NCBI GenBank assembly: GCA_016744995.1
Contig: JADGDG010000001.1
Span: 660,011-724,010, forward strand
Reading direction: 5' to 3'
DNA: 64,000 nucleotides
From: Gammaproteobacteria bacterium
GTDB lineage: Bacteria > Pseudomonadota > Gammaproteobacteria > GRL18
Under the pieces are notes generated by a model. It saw only the letters and a program-made list of their open reading frames with translations, had not been told where the DNA came from and made no database searches. The translations under genes were made by a program, and so were the position numbers. This document shows positions 9,266 to 19,918 of the stretch, piece after piece; the first letter of the stretch is position 1, and each line of letters starts with the position of its first letter.

Positions 9266-10152
9266 TTATCCTTTACCCAACCTTTTAATATCTTCTTCAA
9301 TCGCTTTTAAACTCATTTCCTGTTCTATTTTTTCTGTTCGACCGTGTAGTGCTGATAGGCCTCTGTTGATTTGTCGAGGGCTTGTTGATGTGATATTTCC
9401 CCTGCATGGGTCAGTAACTCACGACCATTTAATTGTAAAATGACATCCAGACGTTCACTCCAGTCTTGCATCGTCATGGGAATCTGTTGTTGTGCCATGG
9501 TTTCAGCAAAGGTGCTGGGGTCTACTCAACGATAAACTAATTCTGCAGCTGTTTGCTGGCTGATTGCCCAGAGTAATTTATTTTGTACTTTTTTGAAAAA
9601 AGCAATGGTTTGTTTATCATTGGCTTGAGAGTCAATGCTGGTGGTATAAATATCCTTAATTTTTTGATAGAAGAATTTTTCTGAAAGACGTATATCACGG
9701 ATGCGCTGTTGCAATTCATTAAAATAGTGCATTGAATTGCCTGTTTCAAAACGCTCGTTATTCAGGACAAAACCTTTGACCAGATAGTCTTTTAAACGCT
9801 GGGTTGCCCAGATCCTAAATTGCGTACCTTGCTGTGATTTTACCCGATAGCCAACAGAGATGATAACATCAAGATTGTAATAATTTGTTTGATAGGATTT
9901 ACCATCTTGCGCAGTTGTTCGGAAATTCCGAACAACTGAATGCTCCTCCAGTTCACCTTCAATAAGCAGGTGTTTTATGTGTTCACTAATGGTTGATTTC
10001 GACTTATTGAACAGGATGCACAAATTAGCCTGTGTTAGCCAAACTGTTTCTCCATCAAGGTTGACATCTAATTGAATGTCTCCATCCTGACTTTGGTAAA
10101 TAAGAATTGCACTGGTATGTTCATTGCTTTCATCCATGTTTTTATCTATCAC
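9266..10152 (-). pseudogene. RhuM-family gene inactivated by stop, deletion and frameshift
   Basis: The 5' part (9526-10152, 208 codons from GTG 10152) is a well-kept RhuM N-terminus: DGETVWLTQANLCILFNKS, EHSVVRNFRTTAQDGKSYQ, YYNLDVIISVGYRVKSQQG. A TGA at 9526-9528 then interrupts it. The same frame continues with IPMTMQDWSERLDVILQ and HAGEISHQQAL, the family's C-terminal motifs, but the roughly 45 residues normally between these blocks are missing. A further shift in an A-run near 9330 is needed to reach the end (KIEQEMSLKAIEEDIKRLG, stop 9266). A 208-residue truncated protein could still be made. RhuM proteins are often island-borne; their function is poorly known. Confidence 0.8.
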
Positions 10153-10200
10153 ATCAGCACTCCCAAAATATCCACTATCAAGCCCTCACTCTGGTTAGAA
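10153..10200 (-). other. Half attC-like site
   Basis: The 13 bases CTGGTTAGAAAAT (10191-10203) are identical to the outer end of the complete attC-like repeat at 12367-12494. The opposite half is missing: the RhuM pseudogene begins here. This looks like a cassette junction cut by insertion or deletion. Confidence 0.4.
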
Positions 10201-10211
10201 AATTTAGATTA

Positions 10212-11144
10212 TTACCAATATCTTGCTGGTAGAATAGGTTTGTTACGGTATGGAGAATACTCTATGTAAATTGATTCTCGCGACCAAAACACGCCACTAC
10301 CACCACTTTCAATTGCTCTAAATTTTGCATTTACAGCACTAGATTCATTCATATAACAAAAACATTGCAACATTTCTAGTATTAATAACCCCTCATTGTT
10401 GCGAATATTGTTTTCTGCTCTCCAAGTAGCTCTTTCTTCAGAACATGGACGAATCTTGATTTTATCATCAAATTGATATCCTAAATATAGAAAGTTATTT
10501 TTGATTTTAGAAAAAATCAGTGACTTTGCAATTTTATTTGCTTTATCAACACCAAAAGATTTATTTAAAAATTCAAAATTTATAGGGAATCTAATTTGTA
10601 CTCTAGATTTTTTATTGATAATTTTTTTTAACTCATTGAAAATTTCTTCTGATTGGTTCTCTATAAATTTTTGAGTACATTCATATAGTAATTTCATTTG
10701 AGTTTTTTTGGAAAATTTAATTCGAATAAGGAGATTTGATTTTGATTTATCAATAAATTCATAGAAGTATGACTCTATTGTGGGTTCACTTAAACTGTTG
10801 AGATGTTCATGCAACTCTTTCTCACTATTAAAAGACATAAGAACGTCTTCATGCAAAATATAAAAAAAATGTTCTCCTGTTCCATCTATTTCAATTTTTG
10901 CATAAGGCAAGGAGTCACATGAAAAAGTTGATAGATACAATAGATTATCGGAAATTGCACTAGCACAATCAACATCATCTAACCACATAGATACATAATA
11001 ATCTATATTTGATTGACCTGATTGTATTTCTGAAGTGTCCGGGTTATTTAAATTGTGATTCTTACATATTTTATTAATCACAGACTTAATTGATTTTGGT
11101 TTTTTTAGATTACAAAAATAATATTCAATGATATTTTCAGACAT
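10212..11144 (-). CDS. Unknown protein, 310 residues (cassette gene)
   Basis: No family recognised. The protein is soluble, without signal peptide or TM helix, and is rich in lysine, asparagine and serine. Recognisable local features are IDGTGEHFFYILHEDVLMSF near residue 85-105, a lysine-rich helical middle (about 140-200) and a C-terminal section with CSEERATWRAENN and FRAIESGGSGVFWSRESIY. It sits between an attC-like repeat on its 5' side (11204-11279) and a half site on its 3' side, so it is most likely the body of one gene cassette. Start ATG 11144 has only a weak ribosome site. Confidence 0.7.
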   Translation of the reverse strand: MSENIIEYYFCNLKKPKSIKSVINKICKNHNLNNPDTSEIQSGQSNIDYYVSMWLDDVDCASAISDNLLYLSTFSCDSLPYAKIEIDGTGEHFFYILHEDVLMSFNSEKELHEHLNSLSEPTIESYFYEFIDKSKSNLLIRIKFSKKTQMKLLYECTQKFIENQSEEIFNELKKIINKKSRVQIRFPINFEFLNKSFGVDKANKIAKSLIFSKIKNNFLYLGYQFDDKIKIRPCSEERATWRAENNIRNNEGLLILEMLQCFCYMNESSAVNAKFRAIESGGSGVFWSRESIYIEYSPYRNKPILPARYW

Positions 11145-11203
11145 AAATAAATTTCTTATTATTGATTTTGATAAAATTTAAATTCTATACTATCCATTGT
11201 TCT

Positions 11204-11279
11204 TTCTAACGTTTTGGCTAAGTTGATTTTTTTGGAGCGACAGCGAACAAAAAAATTCAGTTTGAACCGATTGTTAGGA
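11204..11279 (-). repeat. attC site
   Basis: This 76-bp inverted repeat follows the stop of the 209-residue gene by four bases. Ends TTCTAAC (11204-11210) and GTTAGGA (11273-11279) fit the R''/R' core pattern. Inner arms TTGATTTTTTTGGAGCG and GCGAACAAAAAAATTCAG pair around a three-base loop with the usual bulged positions. Together with TTGTTCGC this is the clearest attC in the array. Confidence 0.78.
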
Positions 11280-11282
11280 GCT

Positions 11283-11912
11283 TTACCAGCAATCACTTTG
11301 CATATCATTTTTATAACCCTGACATTCTGAAATTGCACAAGCCGAGCCCTCCAAGATTAAGGACATTGCTCCTACCACTTCGGCTAGGTTGCGTAAATTT
11401 ACTCTTGAAGCTTCCAAGTTTAATGAATTATTACCGTCAAAATCTTTAGGGTATCTGAATGTTGTTGATCGCGGATCGACTTCTTCAAATTGTGAGATTA
11501 ATGAATCCATTGCTTTAAGATCCTCCCCTTCATCATTTGGCCAAAGCTCATCTAATATACTTCGTACTTTTGGCCACAATTTAGAGAGCTGATGTTCTGA
11601 CTTATGCTTATGTTTTCGATCCAATAGCCGATGACCGTCATGAAGCAAAGATTTAAGCCTGATTTCAACATAGTGCCGATACAAAAAAACAATCGGAAAA
11701 ATCAAGGAGTCGGCACTCCCTTTTTTGTTAGCAATAGAATCCACAAGTGAATCAGCTGCTTCTTTATACCCAGCGATATAAAGCTCAGTTGGATCATGAT
11801 ACCAATTCAAGCATGCATTCATCCACCAATCTTCAGCCTCTATGAATAGTCTGTCATCTTGGCTTGGACTTCTTAATTTTGTGTTCAAGAGGTCGTCAAT
11901 TTCCTTCGGCAT
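11283..11912 (-). CDS. Unknown helical protein, 209 residues (cassette gene)
   Basis: Almost entirely alpha-helical by composition, with no signal peptide. A central segment FLYRHYVEIRLKSLLHDGHR followed by KHKSEHQLSKLWPKVRSIL resembles HEPN-like and other island-borne helical proteins, but the R-x4-6-H nuclease motif of HEPN RNases is not clear, so no function is assigned. It is a textbook cassette: stop at 11283 lies four bases from one attC and the start (ATG 11912, ribosome site AGGAGG) lies seven bases from the next. Confidence 0.75.
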   Translation of the reverse strand: MPKEIDDLLNTKLRSPSQDDRLFIEAEDWWMNACLNWYHDPTELYIAGYKEAADSLVDSIANKKGSADSLIFPIVFLYRHYVEIRLKSLLHDGHRLLDRKHKHKSEHQLSKLWPKVRSILDELWPNDEGEDLKAMDSLISQFEEVDPRSTTFRYPKDFDGNNSLNLEASRVNLRNLAEVVGAMSLILEGSACAISECQGYKNDMQSDCW

Positions 11913-11919
11913 TATTGCC

Positions 11920-12049
11920 TCCTAATGTCATTTTGAGTGGGTGCTGGGGCAAGGAAAGAGGTCGATAAAAAATGATGCTCTCATACCACACTCTACAATT
12001 GGTTAATAATCGCTAAGCCCTAGCGATCCACTCATAAATCTAGTTATAT
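11920..12049 (-). repeat. attC-like site
   Basis: 130-bp imperfect inverted repeat. Left arm ATTTTGAGTGGGTGCTGGGGC (11930-11950) pairs with GCCCTAGCGATCCACTCATAAAT (12017-12039) with bulges. Cores TCCTAAT and GTTATAT deviate from consensus by one or two bases. It separates the 95-residue membrane gene from the 209-residue gene. Confidence 0.6.
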
Positions 12050-12067
12050 TCTTTTGATTAAAATTCA

Positions 12068-12355
12068 TCAATTACACACATTAAATAGTTTAAAAACAAT
12101 GGCATCAGTAATAATACATAAAAGGGAAAAAATTAATACAGGTCTCCATTTTTTACCTTTTTCATTAAGATATTTGCTACTTATTATTGGATGCAGTGGC
12201 CCAAGCACTTCAAATAATAGCCATTTGCTTTTTGGCACATTTTCATTAACAAATACCATAAAAAAACTGACTATTGTCATGAGAATAGCTATTGGTAGAA
12301 GCCAAAATGCTGCTTGTTCATAAATACTAGTGCAATTTGTAAATGTAATATTCAT
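12068..12355 (-). CDS. Small two-TM membrane protein (cassette gene)
   Basis: 95 residues from ATG 12355. A longer frame opens at 12481, but that extra sequence lies inside an attC-like repeat and is not likely translated. TM helices are near residues 14-36 (AAFWLLPIAILMTIVSFFMV) and 72-90 (VLIFSLLCIITDAIVF), joined by a loop containing ENVPKSKWLLFEVLGPLHP. Function unknown. The flanking attC-like repeats at 11920-12049 and 12367-12494 define it as one cassette. Confidence 0.65.
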   Translation of the reverse strand: MNITFTNCTSIYEQAAFWLLPIAILMTIVSFFMVFVNENVPKSKWLLFEVLGPLHPIISSKYLNEKGKKWRPVLIFSLLCIITDAIVFKLFNVCN

Positions 12356-12366
12356 TTCTTTTTTAA

Positions 12367-12494
12367 ATATAACGTCAGATTGTTGGTTCGCAAGGACAAG
12401 GAAAGAGAACTTTAAAAGCTCCGCTCTTCCACAATTCTCATCACTTTTTGAAAATTTCTGAGTCCTTGTGATACCAACCAACCCCTGGTTAGAA
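12367..12494 (-). repeat. attC-like site
   Basis: 128-bp imperfect inverted repeat. Left arm GTTGGTTCGCAAGGAC pairs with right arm GTCCTTGTGATACCAACCAAC, with the usual unpaired bases. Ends are ATATAAC (12367-12373) and GTTAGAA (12488-12494). The end sequence CTGGTTAGAAAAT recurs at the half site near 10200. Confidence 0.62.
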
Positions 12495-12521
12495 AATCAT
12501 AGTTTCGATTTAAACTCATTA

Positions 12522-12812
12522 TTAAATATAATTTTTACTAATGTTTTTTAGTTTACATTCATGTATTATTTCATCAACAGTATATGCTTGCCATTTTTTT
12601 GCAAGTTCATCAGGTTCCCATGAACTTGCGGGTAAAACTGACTTTTCTGAAAATCTTGATTTATAAACACTCAATTTTGCTTCACGAACTTTTTCTGCTA
12701 TTTTTTCAATTTTTTCATGACTAAATTCATTTTTTATAGCATGCTCTAATTCATAAACTCTTTTATTAAAAAGTTTATTTTTCTTTTGGTTGTTTGCTAT
12801 ATATGCTGTCAT
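12522..12812 (-). CDS. Small unknown protein, 96 residues (cassette gene)
   Basis: A basic, helical, soluble protein with a long central helix (YELEHAIKNEFSHEKIEKIA) and a C-terminal ASSWEPDELAKKWQAYTVDE segment. No known family or catalytic motif. It may bind a partner or nucleic acid, but that is only suggested by charge. It lies between a short attC-like site (12825-12864) and a full one (12367-12494). Confidence 0.6.
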   Translation of the reverse strand: MTAYIANNQKKNKLFNKRVYELEHAIKNEFSHEKIEKIAEKVREAKLSVYKSRFSEKSVLPASSWEPDELAKKWQAYTVDEIIHECKLKNISKNYI

Positions 12813-12824
12813 TTTTCTTTACAA

Positions 12825-12864
12825 TTCTAACGCTAAATTTTCTATGAGCAACTTCTTGTTAGGG
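12825..12864 (-). repeat. Shortened attC-like site (40 bp)
   Basis: Cores TTCTAAC (12825-12831) and GTTAGGG (12858-12864) are present, but only about 26 bases lie between them, shorter than the usual attC minimum of roughly 57 bp, and no stem can be drawn. It starts two bases after the stop codon at 12866. It is probably a recombination or deletion derivative. Confidence 0.45.
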
Positions 12865-12865
12865 T

Positions 12866-13708
12866 TTACTCATAAAAGCTTGAAGTATCAATATTTATTT
12901 TATCAACTTCCATTACACTACCAAGCGGTGCTTTGAATAAAACGTTTATAAAACTATTAAAAGGAAATGATTGTGATACTACAACACCATTTCCATTACG
13001 GAGATCTGACCCTGAACCATACTGTAATTCACAATCAAGATTACCAGTAACATGGAGCAATAACGAGCTTGCTCCAATTGTCTCCACATGACCACCATCA
13101 GAATATATCTCTTCAATAAACTGGTGTGTAGAGAGCTCCATTATTTCTTCTACAGATTCAGAAATAACTCGTTCTAGTAGATTTTTATCAATTTCATCTA
13201 CAAGCATTTCCCAAACACTATCTCTAGTTTCAGTGATTTTTTCTACAAAGCCTAACATTGCATCGAGACAGTTTATTGCTAATTTTTCTACATCAGTTTC
13301 GTTAATATTAAATGTATGTGGTTCTATATGCGTGTAACTATTTAATAAAGTGATAATATCTAAAAGCTCTTTAATTTTATCATCAATTTCCTCTAAACCA
13401 AGTTTCTTTGTGATGTAAAAATCTGAAAGGCCGCCTTGTATAGCATATTTAATACGGTGCTTTCGGGTAAAGCCTGTTGAGGATGTTGGTTCTGGTTTAA
13501 ACCAGTCACATGCTTTAACTTTAACATCAGGTGATAATCTGTGTAATAGGTGCCTAAGAAGCTCCCTTAATGAATACGCAAAATTATTGAAACGAAGTGG
13601 ATTATCAATATTTAAATTAATAAATGCTGCATTTAATAATTCTTGCTCAAATCCATTAGAAAAAATTTCGGATATTCTTTCTTTGTATTTATCTTCAATA
13701 TGTTTCAA
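12866..13708 (-). CDS. Unknown protein, 280 residues (cassette gene)
   Basis: No signal peptide or TM. Distinctive blocks are SLRELLRHLLHRLSPDVKV (residues 46-64), CDWFKPEPTSSTGFTRKHR, then IKYAIQGGLSDFYITKKLG and SYTHIEPHTFN. Conserved-looking charged and histidine residues in the first half suggest an enzyme, and I have a faint memory of island proteins of this shape predicted as nucleases, but I cannot confirm this. The C-terminal third is beta-rich (ETIGASSLLLHVTGNLDCEL). The gene is bounded by the short site at 12825-12864 and the attC at 13715-13843. Confidence 0.7.
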   Translation of the reverse strand: MKHIEDKYKERISEIFSNGFEQELLNAAFINLNIDNPLRFNNFAYSLRELLRHLLHRLSPDVKVKACDWFKPEPTSSTGFTRKHRIKYAIQGGLSDFYITKKLGLEEIDDKIKELLDIITLLNSYTHIEPHTFNINETDVEKLAINCLDAMLGFVEKITETRDSVWEMLVDEIDKNLLERVISESVEEIMELSTHQFIEEIYSDGGHVETIGASSLLLHVTGNLDCELQYGSGSDLRNGNGVVVSQSFPFNSFINVLFKAPLGSVMEVDKINIDTSSFYE

Positions 13709-13714
13709 TTTATA

Positions 13715-13843
13715 TCCTAACGTCTAATTGAGGGGATTTTTGGACTTCCAGAGAGTGCATGCCAAGTGGAAAGCCTTAAATAACACTCTAAATTTTAAAT
13801 AGGTGCTGAGTCCAAAAATTCCCTCTCCAATTTCTTGTTGGCT
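13715..13843 (-). repeat. attC site
   Basis: 129-bp structure. The arms TAATTGAGGGGATTTTTGG and CCAAAAATTCCCTCTCCAATT match over about 20 bases with one extra unpaired base, as in attC bottom strands. Ends are TCCTAAC (13715-13721) and GTTGGCT (13837-13843). The interior holds a second small pairing (AGAGTG/CACTCT). It lies 51 bases after the SLATT gene stop. Confidence 0.75.
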
Positions 13844-13894
13844 GTCAGTCCTTTGTTTTAAGGGCAAAGCCAGAGACAGGCAATCTTTTATGTT

Positions 13895-14419
13895 CTAGCT
13901 ATTATTTCTTGTGACGCAGTTTAAAAAGCTTTTGTTCTCCTCCATGGCTTCAGCCTCCCTCTTTGATATTTTGTCCCATATTGGTTGCCTGACTAATAGG
14001 TGATTTTTTGATGTGTGACCATGATCTGACTTTATCTCTTTAATATCTGAGTCATTTATTTCAGCACCACATAGAAACACCTCAATATCTCTCTTTATTT
14101 TCGTAAATTCATTCCCAGCCAATTTATGATCGAATATTTTTTCATCTAGCTTTAAGACATATTGAAGTGTTGTTGTTAGAACTACAGCTAATCCCGCAAT
14201 AGATAGCCATATTTGGTTTGGTGATCCTCCAGAGCTAATTAAGCTGTTATTTGCCAAAAACAGAACCGAAATTGAAGACAACAAATTAAAGGTTGTCAAT
14301 ATTTCATGCCATGTTCTATATTGATGTGCTTGGAAATAATGCGCTAGACTTGCTCTAACAGCTCTGTTTTGCCAGCTAAGTAGCAATTCTCGCTTTGCTT
14401 CTTCACTTTTTTCTTTCAT
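13895..14419 (-). CDS. SLATT-type two-TM protein (possible defence effector, cassette gene)
   Basis: 174 residues. The N-terminal LLLSWQNRAVRASLAHYFQA motif, followed by TM helices at about 44-62 (FNLLSSISVLFLANNS) and 70-90 (IWLSIAGLAVVLTTTLQYVL), matches SLATT domains, the two-TM proteins associated with SMODS/SLOG nucleotide-signal systems and predicted to form membrane pores. The cytosolic tail (95-174) is charged. No partner cyclase or SLOG gene is seen nearby, so it would have to act alone or with a distant partner. Family call is moderate; effector role is inferred from published domain analyses. Confidence 0.62.
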   Translation of the reverse strand: MKEKSEEAKRELLLSWQNRAVRASLAHYFQAHQYRTWHEILTTFNLLSSISVLFLANNSLISSGGSPNQIWLSIAGLAVVLTTTLQYVLKLDEKIFDHKLAGNEFTKIKRDIEVFLCGAEINDSDIKEIKSDHGHTSKNHLLVRQPIWDKISKREAEAMEENKSFLNCVTRNNS

Positions 14420-15364: not shown

Positions 15365-15393
15365 CCAGTAAAGAACTTTATTATCCAGTCACA
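15365..15393 (-). other. Relic right end of an older Tn7-like element
   Basis: Read on the minus strand from 15393, the sequence begins TGTGACTGGATAATAAAG and continues to ACTGG, matching the layout of Tn7-type ends: TGT terminus, seven bases, then a TnsB site with the AATAAAGT core. It points the same way as the right end at 18066 and lies nine bases outside the left end of the younger element. No further clear TnsB site or tns gene follows. Confidence 0.6.
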
Positions 15394-15397
15394 TCTT

Positions 15398-15402
15398 TGA
15401 AT
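15398..15402 (+). repeat. Target-site duplication, left copy
   Basis: TGAAT directly before the left TGT terminus. It is identical to 18067-18071, and five bases is the Tn7 duplication length. Confidence 0.85.
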
Positions 15403-15550
15403 TGTGGGTGAGTAATAGAGTGTCATACTGAGCAGTTCTGTAGATCGCATTATTTGTCTTAAAATAACCATGACAAATTAATAAAGTATCATACTGAAAT
15501 GATTTTTTAGAGACATTATTTTCAGGTTTAGGTAATAAAGTATCATACTA
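15403..15550 (+). repeat. Left end with three TnsB-type binding sites
   Basis: Sites at 15410-15431 (GAGTAATAGAGTGTCATACT...), 15478-15498 (TTAATAAAGTATCATACTGA...) and 15531-15550 (GGTAATAAAGTATCATACTA) share TAATARAGTRTCATACT. Spacing is about 68 and 53 bases. The shared AATAAAGT and ACTG elements are those of the Tn7 TnsB site. Confidence 0.82.
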
Positions 15551-15934
15551 TTAAATTTGAAAAGTGATTTAAATGTATGACAGCAATCGTCCCCAACCCG
15601 CAGTTCAGCAATTTTTTTTGGCTAACGAAGACTTTGAAAAAGCAGCCATTCCAGACCTGAAAATATGTAGATTTTAGAGATTTTCAAAATAGTCATTCCT
15701 CACAGTTATCAACCATTCTGTTGAATCCACTGAGTTAATTACCACCTACTTCTGTTGTTTTCTAGAAGAGGGTTGCTATTTTTATTGGTAATTTAGTTTA
15801 TAAATATGATAATTTGAGTAATATCTGAAACACGTAAAACAACAAAATAAGGTTTTAAATTAATGAGTATTGCATATAATGTTAAAATTAAATTAAACCG
15901 AATTGTTTAAATATCATAAATAGTGGGTAGAATA
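15551..15934. other. Leader region inside the element
   Basis: No full gene. A 34-codon frame at 15573-15677 (MYDSNRPQPAVQQFFLANED...) reads like a protein fragment but I cannot assign it. The rest is AT-rich and must contain the promoter for the lipoprotein genes. Confidence 0.45.
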
Positions 15935-16399
15935 ATGAACTTAAGAAAAATTATTTTTATTGTAATTATAACTTTCACATTAATCTCTTGTAGTGAAGAA
16001 AATAGACAAATCATAACTTCTAAGCTTGAACCAAGAAATGGACTAGCCTATGAACCAGGTCAAACTGAACCCTTTACAGGCATTTTTTTGGAAAAATGGT
16101 CAAATGGAAATAACAAACGTGAATTTCATTTTAAAAATGGAGTTCAAGATGGAAAAACAAACCGTTGGTATGAAAATGGACAAAAAAGTTCTGAAGGTAA
16201 TAGAAAAAAAGGCAAACCACATGGTCGTCAGCGTTCTTGGAATGAAATGGGGAGAAAAGAAGGTGAGTTTAATTATAAAAATGGTATAAAGCATGGTCGA
16301 CATGTAACTTGGCTTACAGATGGGAATATTATGGGTGAAAGTGTATATGAAAATGGAATAGAAATATCATCATCAAATTTTATGGATAAAATTAAATAA
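15935..16399 (+). CDS. Lipoprotein with MORN/YwqK-type repeats
   Basis: 154 residues from ATG 15935 (GTG 15923 would add four). Signal with lipobox TLISC. The mature part has four or more copies of the toxin-antitoxin-associated YwqK/MORN variant pattern, seen as WSNGNNKREFHFKNGVQDGK, WYENGQKSSEGNRKKGKPHG, WNEMGRKEGEFNYKNGIKHG and WLTDGNIMGESVYENG. Such repeats form extended beta sheets; YwqK proteins are annotated as antitoxins but many are simply surface lipoproteins. It is the first cargo gene and abuts the next lipoprotein. Confidence 0.8.
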   Translation: MNLRKIIFIVIITFTLISCSEENRQIITSKLEPRNGLAYEPGQTEPFTGIFLEKWSNGNNKREFHFKNGVQDGKTNRWYENGQKSSEGNRKKGKPHGRQRSWNEMGRKEGEFNYKNGIKHGRHVTWLTDGNIMGESVYENGIEISSSNFMDKIK

Positions 16400-16423
16400 A
16401 TGTTAAATTTTATGAGTATAGAC

Positions 16424-16735
16424 ATGAATAAATTAATTATTAGTATAGCAATCGTCTTCTACATTAGTTTTTTATTTGGTTGCTCTGAAGAGTCCTCTCC
16501 TTTAGTTTCAACTGAGATAGCATATAAAGCTTGTGAAAGGTTTATGAATAGGAATTTTAAAACAAAGACAGCCAAAAGTGTAGATAACTGGGTGAAGAAT
16601 GGAAAATTGGTAGTTAAAGTTCGACATGCTAGTGATATTAATATTGGTTCCGATGAATATAGTCTTTGTGTGTATACAAAAGAAGATGGAGTTTATTATC
16701 CAGGAGCATTTGGTTTTGATAAATGGATGAGATAA
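16424..16735 (+). CDS. Small lipoprotein of unknown function
   Basis: 103 residues from ATG 16424; an upstream ATG at 16400 directly follows the previous stop but would place extra charged residues before the signal. Lipobox FLFGC near residue 20. The mature domain (about 80 residues) contains ACERFMNRNFKTKTAKSVDN and a C-terminal YSLCVYTKEDGVYYPGAFG. No family recognised. It is probably cotranscribed with the MORN lipoprotein and could be its partner. Confidence 0.7.
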   Translation: MNKLIISIAIVFYISFLFGCSEESSPLVSTEIAYKACERFMNRNFKTKTAKSVDNWVKNGKLVVKVRHASDINIGSDEYSLCVYTKEDGVYYPGAFGFDKWMR

Positions 16736-16871
16736 ATTATCACCCACTACCTAAAAAATATAGATTAAAAAAATATTAGTTGAATTCAAAAAATACCAAT
16801 ATAATCTACTAAGACAAGTATTTATTCAATTAAAAATACTTGTGAATTTAAAGGAAAGATGAGAATTTACA

Positions 16872-17492
16872 TTGGTTAATGATATAGTTAATAATAACTC
16901 TAAGGTTATTTTTATTTTAGAGTCTCCTCACACAGAAGAGATTAAAGGTAGTTTGCCTTTACTTGGAAAGTCGGGTGAAGTTTTTAGTCAAGCATTACTG
17001 ACAGACAAACATAGACCTGCAGGTCTTCAAATAAATCAAGGAAATATCCCGTATTCTATTTTGAATACCTTTCAAAATTCCTTACAAACGAGTAATGAAC
17101 TTTCAGAAATAAATATCTTGATTGAGAAGCTTGATTTTAATAGATTACAAATTGTTAAATATAAAAAACAGGTTAACAATATAATAAAAGAAAGCGGTAT
17201 TACTTATTCTCTGGTTCACTCATATAAAGAGCGTATAAAGTCAGTACTCCTAAAGTCTGACAATGATGTAAAAATTGTTGTTTGTGGAATTATAGCCCAA
17301 GTATTTTTTGAACTTGCTTTTTGTGAGACAGAGATATGGTTCGGAAAAGTAACTCAAAGAGTGATAACAGAAAAAAAAATTAAAATTTTATATGTAGAAC
17401 ACCCATCACCAAAAAATAAGAAAACTACCCATTGGAAACCAGTAACGGGAAATAAAAAACTGAAAAGATTAAAGGATTTTGTGGGTTACTAA
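16872..17492 (+). CDS. Uracil-DNA-glycosylase-superfamily-like protein
   Basis: 206 residues from TTG 16872; no ATG fits and the ribosome site is weak. The N-terminal FILESPHTEEIKGSLPLLGK followed by SGEVF resembles UDG motif 1 (glycine/proline-rich active-site loop with an acidic residue and the L-x-G-x-x-G segment), and the C-terminal VEHPSP resembles motif 2 (H-P-S). The sequence between, VVCGIIAQVFF, fits the preceding strand. I rate it as a distant UDG relative; it might excise bases or be a nucleic-acid or nucleotide-binding protein. It is the only soluble cargo protein of the element. Confidence 0.6.
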   Translation: MVNDIVNNNSKVIFILESPHTEEIKGSLPLLGKSGEVFSQALLTDKHRPAGLQINQGNIPYSILNTFQNSLQTSNELSEINILIEKLDFNRLQIVKYKKQVNNIIKESGITYSLVHSYKERIKSVLLKSDNDVKIVVCGIIAQVFFELAFCETEIWFGKVTQRVITEKKIKILYVEHPSPKNKKTTHWKPVTGNKKLKRLKDFVGY

Positions 17493-17999
17493 TATATGGT
17501 TAATTATAAATTGTAAATTTTTAGTGTATTTAAAACATCTTATAATATTCGCTTTTGGGGCAGATCAAGCAAGGCGTTTTATATTTGTTTTTTACTCGTT
17601 TCACCAATTCAGCTTGTTCTGTAATGTAAAATATCAGTATTAAATCGGTAAGTAGTCAATTTCTAAAGAAGAGTAAATTGGCTCTTTTATGCTGAGCCCT
17701 GACATTTAAAGCCAATGATTTATTGATAATCAGTAATGTCCGCTTTATGGCAAACCAACTGAAAATAGAACTTGACCTCGACTAGCTCCTTTAGGTCCAG
17801 ACCGTGTGAAAACTCTGTAGTGAAAAAATAAATCTGCTCTCACGTGAATAGTTTTGCTCTTTCATACATGAACTATCTTAGAATTTAAGCCAGGGCTTAT
17901 TTTTTAACAACATTTAATGTATAAACAGATTTGATTTGAGTTTTCACACACCCTCGGTCATGAGCGACATAATTAGCATTCTCTAATGCCAACTGATTT
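17493..17999. other. Non-coding right-hand part of the element
   Basis: No coding frame. Contains the inverted pair GTGTGAAAACTC (17804-17815) and GAGTTTTCACAC (17938-17949), 146 bp end to end, which looks like a small relic transposon or MITE nested in the element. AATGTCCGCTTTATGGC near 17735 is another fragment of repetitive character. Confidence 0.5.
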
Positions 18000-18066
18000 A
18001 GTATGAATTTTTATTACTTGGTATGATACTTTAATACTCAGTATGACACTCTATTACTCGACTACA
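18000..18066 (-). repeat. Right end with three abutting TnsB-type sites
   Basis: Read on the minus strand: TGTAGTC, then GAGTAATAGAGTGTCATACT (18059-18040), GAGTATTAAAGTATCATACC (18039-18020) and AAGTAATAAAAATTCATACT (18019-18000). Tight head-to-tail packing is the hallmark of the Tn7 right end. Confidence 0.85.
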
Positions 18067-18091
18067 TGAATGGAAAGCTTATCAGAACCAA
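18067..18091 (-). other. attTn7 insertion segment and right target duplication
   Basis: Exactly 25 bases separate the glmS stop codon from the TGT terminus; the last five (TGAAT, 18067-18071) duplicate 15398-15402. The conserved glmS 3' end encoding NLAKSVTVE, recognised by TnsD in Tn7, is intact next to it. Confidence 0.85.
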
Positions 18092-19918
18092 CTACTCCAC
18101 TGTCACAGACTTCGCCAGATTACGTGGCTGGTCAACATCTGTTCCCTTTATAATAGCAACATGATAGGAAAGTAGCTGGAGCGGTATGGTGAATACCATT
18201 GGTGCAATAAGTGAGTCTATTTCTCCAACTTTGATTACTTTAATTGACTCTTCTTCTTCAAGATCGGCATGGGTATCTGCAAAGACATAGAGCTTACCTC
18301 CCCGGGTTTTAACTTCCTGCAGGTTTGATTTAAGTTTGCCGATTAAATCATTATTGGGGGCTACGGCGACCACGGGCATATCGGCATCAACTAATGCCAG
18401 AGGGCCATGTTTTAATTCACCGGCAGGATAGGCTTCTGCATGAATATAGGAGATCTCTTTTAATTTTAATGCGCCTTCCATTGCTATGGGATATTGAGTG
18501 GCTCTGCCCAGAAACAAGGTATGATGCTTATCAGAAAAATCTTTTGCCAGCTCTTCAATTTCTGCATCCAGACTGAGGGCGCTTTCAATTTGTCCGGGTA
18601 ATTTTCGTAATGCTGCAACAGCTTCATTTTCCAGTTTAGTATTGCCCTTTTCCTTTGCAACACAGACGACCAGCATCAATAGCACAGTAAGCTGTGTGGT
18701 AAAGGCTTTGGTTGATGCGACACCAATTTCTGGACCTGCGTGGGTCATAAAAGCAAGACTTGACTCTCTTACTAAAGAGCTTTCAGGCACATTACAGATC
18801 ACCAGAGAATGCATTACTCCCTGTTTCTTTGCTTCACGTAAAGCAGCCAGTGTATCAGCTGTTTCTCCGGATTGTGAAATAGTCACTATAAGCGTTTTAT
18901 CACTATAAACCGCTTTTCTATATCTGAATTCACTAGCCACTTCAATCATGCAGGGAATTTTAACAATACCTTCAAACCAGTATTTTGCAACCAGTCCTGC
19001 GTGGTAACTGGTTCCACAGGCAATAATATAGACTGAGTCTATTTCCTTAAAAATCTTCTCCGCTTCAAAACCGAAGGCATTGGTATAAATTCGTTCATTA
19101 TCGATACGCCCTTCCAGAGTGTCTGCAACTGCTTTCGGCTGTTCATAAATTTCTTTGAGCATATAGTGGCGATATTCACCACGCTCCACTGCATCAGCAC
19201 TAATTTCACTTTTGCGCGTTGGTCGTTCTATTTGTTTGCCATTCAGATCATAAATGACAACCGAATCACGGGTGATATCTGCCACATCACCTTCTTCAAG
19301 AAAGATAAATTGCTGGGTAACCGGTAATAGTGCAGAAACATCGGACGCAATAAAATTTTCACCAATGCCCAGACCAATGACCAACGGGCTGCCGCTTCTG
19401 GCGGCAATGATTCTTTCCTCGGTGTTATCAATAACACCCAGAGCATAAGCGCCTTCCAAAATTTTTATAGTATCCAGAACAGCCTGAAGTAGATCCTTAC
19501 CCTGTTTTTTGTTTTTTCCGATAAGGTGCACAATACTTTCACTATCTGTTTGTGAACAGAATTTAACACCCTCGCTTTCCAGTTCTGATTTTATGGTTTC
19601 ATAATTTTCAATAATACCATTATGAACCAGTGCAACATTGCCTTCACACATGTGTGGATGGGCATTGTGTTTTGCAGGTTTTCCATGGGTTGCCCAGCGT
19701 GTATGAGCCACACCAATACCACCTTTGAGAGGGATTTTTTCCAGTTCATTGGCAAGTTCATTTACCTTACCCATGGCCCTCTGACGATTAATAATTTTAT
19801 CGTGATCCTGTATTGCCAGTCCTGCAGAATCATAACCACGATATTCCAGACGTCTTAAACCTTCGATTAAAATGGCTTCAACATTACGTTCAGCAACAGC
19901 CCCTACAATGCCACACAT
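18092..19918 (-). CDS. glmS: Glutamine-fructose-6-phosphate aminotransferase
   Basis: 608 residues. It converts fructose-6-phosphate and glutamine to glucosamine-6-phosphate, the first step towards UDP-GlcNAc. The N-terminal nucleophile Cys2 ([12 protein letters not shown]) starts the glutaminase domain, TRWATHGKP is its loop, and two SIS sugar-isomerase domains follow ([26 protein letters not shown]). The C-terminus [13 protein letters not shown] is the standard end used as attTn7. Ribosome site AAGGAAAGAGT. It lies nine bases after glmU and is in the same operon. No glmS ribozyme is expected or seen. Confidence 0.98.

Follow-up and report, generated by a model that had tools for sequence, protein, structure and literature searches.

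A Tn7-like element without transposition genes, carrying its own cargo, at the attTn7 site of a gammaproteobacterium

The element behind glmS and its ends

The window analysed in this study is the whole 64-kb stretch at positions 660011-724010 of contig C35 in the genome of a gammaproteobacterium (G000; 5.18 Mb, 65 contigs). Behind its glmS gene, the target gene of Tn7, lies an element of 2,664 bp that has Tn7-type ends and cargo genes but no Tns genes. It starts with TGT at 15403 (TGTGGGTGAG, with TGAAT directly before it), ends with ACA at 18066 (CTCGACTACA), and is enclosed by a perfect duplication of TGAAT. The features of the locus are as follows (positions in the window):

15403..18066, + strand: the whole element from terminus to terminus, 2,664 bp
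15398..15402, no strand: target-site duplication TGAAT, left copy, read directly
18067..18071, no strand: target-site duplication TGAAT, right copy, read directly
18092..19918, - strand: glmS, attTn7 target gene, 3' end towards the element, stop codon boundary at 18092
15413..15429, + strand: left-end TnsB-type site 1, offset 11 from TGT
15479..15495, + strand: left-end TnsB-type site 2, offset 77
15533..15549, + strand: left-end TnsB-type site 3, offset 131
18040..18056, - strand: right-end TnsB-type site 1, offset 11
18020..18036, - strand: right-end TnsB-type site 2, offset 31
18000..18016, - strand: right-end TnsB-type site 3, offset 51

The arrays of TnsB-type sites are asymmetric, as in Tn7-like ends, with three spaced sites on the left and three abutting sites on the right, and the 30-bp termini are identical at 27 of 30 positions. 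The right end faces glmS and lies 25 bp from its stop codon (20 bp plus the 5-bp duplication), which is the distance and the orientation of an insertion at attTn7. An earlier sequence-only reading had taken the element for a Tn7-like unit that sits at attTn7, lacks a transposase and has cargo of its own. The evidence supports this, and the site arrays, the TGT terminus, the perfect duplication and the exact distance of 25 bp that it named were all confirmed here.

A 17-mer taken from that reading gave six matches with three mismatches or fewer in the window as compared with a mean of 1.27 in shuffled sequences, and 1 of 100 shuffles reached six, which is modest evidence if taken alone. The decisive evidence for the ends is the arrangement of the sites and not the count of the 17-mer. 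Only the six sites of the element exceeded 15 bits in the window with a matrix that was trained partly on these six. An independent end finder was built with a matrix from the six sites of the complete transposon of a congener (G004) alone, and requires TGT and three sites within offset ranges. In the window this finder called exactly two ends, both belonging to the element; 6.4 Mb of first-order random sequence yielded no call. In 1,360,552 bases of 79 named glmS loci it called three ends, all of them at the attTn7 of one Methylobacter.

Three genes, all on the same strand, make up the open reading frames listed inside the element, and none of them is a tns gene:

15938..16399, + strand: cargo 1, protein with MORN-variant repeats, N-terminus lipoprotein-like by eye
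16400..16735, + strand: cargo 2, protein of 111 amino acids, no known family, lipoprotein-like N-terminus by eye
16872..17492, + strand: cargo 3, protein of 206 amino acids, predicted uracil-DNA-glycosylase fold (Pfam, model)

Ten Tns queries, which detected Tns genes in three control loci, gave no tblastn match at E<=1 within the element; two chance-level matches (E 0.10 and 0.28) fell elsewhere in the window. Because neither an open reading frame for tnsA, tnsB, tnsC or a target selector nor a tblastn match was found inside, the element was not classified as an autonomous Tn7-like transposon, in agreement with the earlier statement that no tns gene is present. Cargo 1 matched MORN_2 (PF07661, 1.2e-5) and cargo 3 matched UDG (PF03167, 0.0025), both under the Pfam cut-off. 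The UDG-like character attributed to cargo 3 in the sequence-only reading holds as a predicted fold, since the structure model (predicted local distance difference test, pLDDT, 74.6; alignment of 3 sequences) matched Mug/TDG-type DNA glycosylases best (E 8.5e-6). Two relatives of cargo 3 besides itself were found in the protein search, with 56% and 28% identity. A defence family was looked for among the three cargo proteins and none was found. Several genes of defence type cluster to the left of the element, at 9526-14419 in the window (PDC-S05-like, weak HamA-like, Aga_Nuclease / predicted pPIWI-associated nuclease, and weak 2TM effector).

Relatives with tns genes and the origin of the element

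Related bacteria contain a full transposon whose ends are built in the same way. At glmS of congener G004 there is an element of 20.7 kb, with TAATT duplicated on both sides, whose tnsABCDE operon has all its parts according to Pfam (TnsA, Mu-transposase C domain, TniB/AAA, TniQ/TnsD and TnsE). Its sites lie at offsets of 11/76/131 on the left and 11/30/50 on the right, i.e., within 1 bp of those in the window (11/77/131 and 11/31/51). The two elements have in common the termini, the number, order and offsets of the sites, the 5-bp duplication, and the position and orientation at glmS. They differ in that the window element lacks tnsA, B, C, D and E, is 2.7 kb long rather than 20.7 kb, and has site letters that are different in part, G004 having mostly CCT or CTT at the site end and the window ACT/ACC.

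Among 40 searched genomes, TnsA was detected in four, G000 not being one of them, and all four matches adjoin glmS. Of the 11 congeners with a readable site, six (G002, G003, G004, G013, G014 and G015) have a right end 24-25 bp behind glmS, and in the other five no clear right end was seen by eye. Four further congeners were unreadable at the site (two loci cut by contig ends, two without a glmS match). G017, from a different genus of the same family, has a right end of the window's class directly beside the start of tnsA, at the contig edge. Right ends were found with stricter filters in 3 of 369 genomes of the class, the window's own included. A Citrobacter plasmid with TnsA/TnsB (L277) was considered as a relative of the same class and rejected, because it belongs to another site class.

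Two tandem elements with GCAAG at both junctions occupy the attTn7 of Candidatus Methylobacter oryzae KRF1 (L078); the outer one encodes TnsB and TnsC, and its right end falls into the site class of the window. A possible counterpart of such a tandem arrangement was seen just beyond the left duplication of the window element, and a left partner for it was looked for and not found:

15367..15393, - strand: weak candidate for a relic right end left by an earlier occupant of attTn7 (4.5 bits, E 1.1 in 22 kb)

The window element is very likely a natural mini-Tn7, probably inserted by TnsABC and TnsD acting in trans from a full Tn7-like element. Movement in trans is likely because the element has complete Tn7 end signals but no transposition genes; the anatomy of its ends, the duplication, the target position, the lack of tns genes and the matching anatomy of the complete congener transposon were all directly observed. 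TnsB of the full element would have bound the six sites, and TnsA together with TnsB would have cut the unit out. It would then have been received at glmS by TnsC with TnsD, the latter being bound to glmS and choosing the site. Presumably the donor stayed in the host only temporarily, or the assembly does not contain it.

On the other hand, several points weigh against this interpretation. Movement was not observed and the donor transposase was not found in the host genome, where the TnsA search gave no match and no homologue of the TnsB of G004 was present at E<=1. The same TnsB query matched 2 of 24 family genomes (G003 and G004), and missed G014 and G017, both of which have TnsA at contig edges. 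Scans of the host genome for Mu-transpos_C (PF09299) and TniQ (PF06527) also gave no match, and these negatives are weak because neither scan matched any control genome. A donor could also be missed because the assembly is 95.8% complete. A tns operon with matching ends, for which the sequence-only reading had suggested a search of the genome and relatives, was not found in the host genome and is present in G004, with site letters that agree in part; no complete tnsABC element with exactly the site letters of the window was found. In the outer Methylobacter element, whose sites belong to the window's class, tnsA is broken and the tnsB/tnsC open reading frames are short (642/309 amino acids vs 707/552 in G004). 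Finally, tns genes may have been lost after insertion in the case of the window copy alone.

This last point would make the element a decayed autonomous Tn7, which inserted with its own tns genes, lost them by internal deletion and was never moved in trans. Elements with tns genes do occupy the same site in relatives, and G002 keeps only a 111-residue TnsA match beside its right end, on a contig ending about 1 kb further on, with a TnsA family scan giving no match. However, such decay is unlikely for the window element, in which the ten Tns queries found no remnant and all six sites are intact. Moreover, the interior of the right end is common to other ends in the host genome:

17952..18066, - strand: whole right end, common to other elements of the host genome (90% over 111 bp with L018)

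Because it is shared with other ends of the same genome, this interior should be older than the insertion at glmS; in G004, G017 and Methylobacter the same stretch is where tnsA begins. Elsewhere, too, there are small units built in this way and flanked by perfect duplications.

As a mini-Tn7, the unit has what defines a mini-transposon, namely transposon ends around cargo, no transposase and a target duplication. Engineered mini-Tn7 vectors also consist of two ends and cargo and insert about 25 nt from glmS with tns functions supplied in trans, but they are man-made, whereas the window unit is natural and has its own genes. According to the available parts of the texts, as holds for all papers cited below, two ends are enough when TnsABCD(E) is supplied (PMC10304964), and 166 bp of the left end with 90 bp of the right end are enough in mini-Tn7 (PMC2918618). 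Non-autonomous units of the Tn3 family similarly depend on a related transposase in trans and exist in small or cargo-bearing forms. They have simple inverted repeats, whereas the window element has asymmetric multi-site ends of the Tn7 type at the Tn7 target.

Related ends in the host genome

At E<=0.01 the profile of the right end (built from nine ends) found 12 places in G000. Since one of them is the left end of the window element, there are at least 11 right ends, namely the window's and at least 10 others. The left-end profile (from eight ends) found 16 places, reducing to at least 10 left ends, at least nine of them besides the window's. At least 19 related ends therefore lie elsewhere in the genome. 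These counts are lower bounds, since 150 candidates out of 910 and 150 out of 2,270 from the first look were scored, and they include ends from which the profiles were built and which match by construction. The sequence-only reading had held that repeats scattered away from glmS without TGT or duplication would speak against it, and this was partly the case: most of the scattered ends have TGT but are less complete, and among the genome's four paired elements a perfect duplication is found in two, the window element and L188. The paired elements besides the window's, two of them in relatives, are:

L181, 1284-6340: 5.1 kb, right end truncated
L188, 11902-18028: 6.1 kb, duplication GCAAA/GCAAA
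L017: 5.5 kb, no duplication
L190 (relative), 9727-11930: 2.2 kb, duplication agreeing at 4/5
L189 (relative): 11.4 kb, duplication agreeing at 4/5

Each of these five has, at the expected offsets, a single site on the left and no more than two on the right, and so looks like an older relative. When 25 own or relative loci were scanned with the three-site test trained on G004, only one other end passed, that of L018. From such comparisons the dispersed elements may be read as older relatives, and the glmS copy is the one with both ends intact. The proposal that the dispersed repeats disprove a mini-Tn7 was considered and rejected, the right end being shared but the paired elements less complete.

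Ten of the loci with Tn7-like ends adjoin a repeat of about 230 bp, here called repeat X, which contains a long hairpin (GTCTAACTGGGG...CCCCAGTTAGAC; L020:5777-6003) and has 51 matches in the genome, often as inverted pairs. The one intact pair of ends among the ten has GCAAA on both sides, and seven pairs of repeat X were read that have no Tn7-like insertion. The ten loci may derive from several separate insertions into the same spot of X, or from a single lineage that was amplified. The hairpins of X could hint at an integron. Repeat X as a part of the window element was rejected, none of its listed matches falling within the element.

The number of right and left ends in one genome and their frequent position beside repeat X would also fit an old dispersed repeat family as the real unit, the glmS copy being one more member without recent movement. 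This is quite improbable, as the glmS copy lies at the Tn7 target with all three sites in each end and a perfect duplication, and in the re-scan of the 25 loci only the end of L018 passed as well. TGT termini and 5-bp duplications are common to several DDE transposons, but the chance landing downstream of glmS of another such family (Tn402/Tn5053-like, or a cassette derived from an insertion sequence) is barely credible, being contradicted by six site offsets that equal those of a tnsABCDE element within 1 bp and by insertion at the distance and in the orientation of attTn7.

Genes of toxin-antitoxin type (HigB, ParE, addiction-module antidote) are found repeatedly among the cargo of L188, L181 and L190. 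Right ends were also seen 21 bp behind an sfsA-like gene (L184:3271) and 50 bp behind a HerA-like gene (L016:4129), both genes named by eye; these loci are possible further attachment sites of this transposon family.

Sister units in phages and plasmids and the qnrS2 cassette

Searching viral contigs with two abutting sites as the pattern gave six stretches and with the full terminal site ten; looser letters in the same search gave nothing further. Contig 3300024947_000004 (L254) contains a unit of 1,201 bp between a gpA-type terminase gene and a portal gene, with duplication ATCGC, left sites at 11/77/132, a doubled right end and a single gene, for a D12-class adenine methyltransferase. At L254:9816-9954 two complete three-site right ends lie in tandem, as if stacked. 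A second complete copy is in contig L252; further contigs have an end only, and one is diverged. Its exact empty site, i.e., the uninterrupted junction in a pattern search, was found in one contig (L261), the flanks of which are identical at 100% over 1,503 bp on one side and 92% over 431 bp on the other, with 73% over 2.6 kb further out. Judged by these flanks, L261 is a related phage without the insertion, and the filled and empty pair records a past insertion of the sister unit, not of the window element. A second viral contig has a unit of 1,079 bp with two small open reading frames and offsets of 11/77/131 and 11/31/51, the duplication of which (TCACT/GCACT) agrees at 4/5 bases. In the phage collection the right end as query gave no match, and the whole 1,201-bp unit gave only methylase matches, in eight Salmonella phage records.

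The right end of the phage unit matched 284 of 72,556 plasmid records. Fifteen chosen stretches comprised six with full end pairs, eight with a right end only, one of which adjoins an annotated TnsA, and one with none. All six pairs have perfect duplications, and Tns queries against the four kinds of unit gave no match:

Methylomonas plasmid: 292-bp unit, duplication ATCAC
Methylobacter plasmid: 503-bp unit, duplication GAAGG, annotated gene of 80 amino acids
Vibrio plasmid: 679-bp unit, duplication TATGG, one gene of 145 amino acids
Two Aeromonas plasmids and an E. coli plasmid: 1,370-bp qnrS2 unit in three copies, duplications CCAGC (Aeromonas) and GTCGC (E. coli)

The window element as a DNA query matched 29 plasmid records, with a few percent covered at most in the best 20 of the 29.

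The 1,370-bp unit is the mobile insertion cassette mic-qnrS2. It was reported in 2008, at 1,375 bp, to lack a transposase and to have imperfect inverted repeats of 22 bp and a duplication of 5 bp (PMC2600179). According to a later paper the repeats led to no transposase (PMC3913671), and in a 2025 paper the cassette was still characterised by its repeats, the available main text being without Tn7 (PMC11832570). Its left end has three TnsB-type sites at 11/77/132, and its right end has sites at 32 and 52 plus a first site with an extra base. The TnsB-type sites in mic-qnrS2 are newly seen here. With the first site one base longer, the right end was not called by the G004-trained finder, which needs all three sites. 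At least 80% of the cassette is present in 118 records of the plasmid collection; 2,137 records match it, most of which, judged by identity bands and the best 12 of the 2,137, hold a qnrS gene alone.

Like the window element, mic-qnrS2 of Aeromonas and Enterobacterales plasmids has cargo between its ends, a 5-bp duplication, TnsB-type sites and no transposase (PMC2600179, PMC5444012, PMC11832570); it differs in having one resistance gene and in lying on plasmids, not at glmS. The literature describes it by 22-bp imperfect inverted repeats, with no transposon family named in the available text. The view of the sequence-only reading that such carriers are rarely described needs qualification, since the same design was published in 2008, although in the available text it was not connected with Tn7. 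Natural tns-less Tn7 units were undescribed in the titles and abstract openings among the matches listed, a scope outside which most subscription journals fall. Tn7 was absent from the papers on the qnrS2 cassette (PMC4948828, PMC7158099, PMC5444012, PMC2600179, PMC3913671, PMC10434038, PMC11832570, PMC7557826 and PMC4444841). Of three listed papers that name both, one employs Tn7 as a marker tool and presents the qnrS2 unit as without transposase; in the other two, qnrS2 was seen in a reference only. An assignment of such units, or of the qnrS2 cassette, to Tn7 was not found among the matches listed.

Tn7 probably has a hidden satellite class that includes the qnrS2 cassette, i.e., units of 0.3 to 2.7 kb with TnsB-site arrays only, borne by phages and plasmids, moved in trans by any compatible TnsABC, and placed at attTn7 when TnsD selects the target. 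Sister units away from glmS would have been placed by another target selector such as TnsE, which is encoded by G004, and the phages and plasmids bearing them could serve as vehicles between cells. If this is true, it would name the missing transposase of the qnrS2 cassette, and a clinically known cassette, the inverted repeats of which had led to no transposase (PMC3913671), would gain a testable family. The site attTn7 would then be a docking site for small cargo that needs no transposase of its own. A broad survey of Tn7-like elements mined databases with Tn7 components as seeds (PMC10293859); searches seeded by tns genes would miss tns-less units, and if satellites are common, the reach of Tn7 in gene transfer is underestimated.

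Two further plasmids contain sequences of this kind. In the Photobacterium plasmid pP9014 (L267:3349-4065), a DNA adenine methylase gene, a cargo type resembling that of the phage unit, ends at a right end of this class, and a left end was not found in the stretch examined. A possible Tn7-like miniature unit of 267 bp (L269:2754-3020) lies beside tetR(H)-tet(H) in the Pasteurella plasmid pB1018, its right array being intact and its left terminus degenerate.

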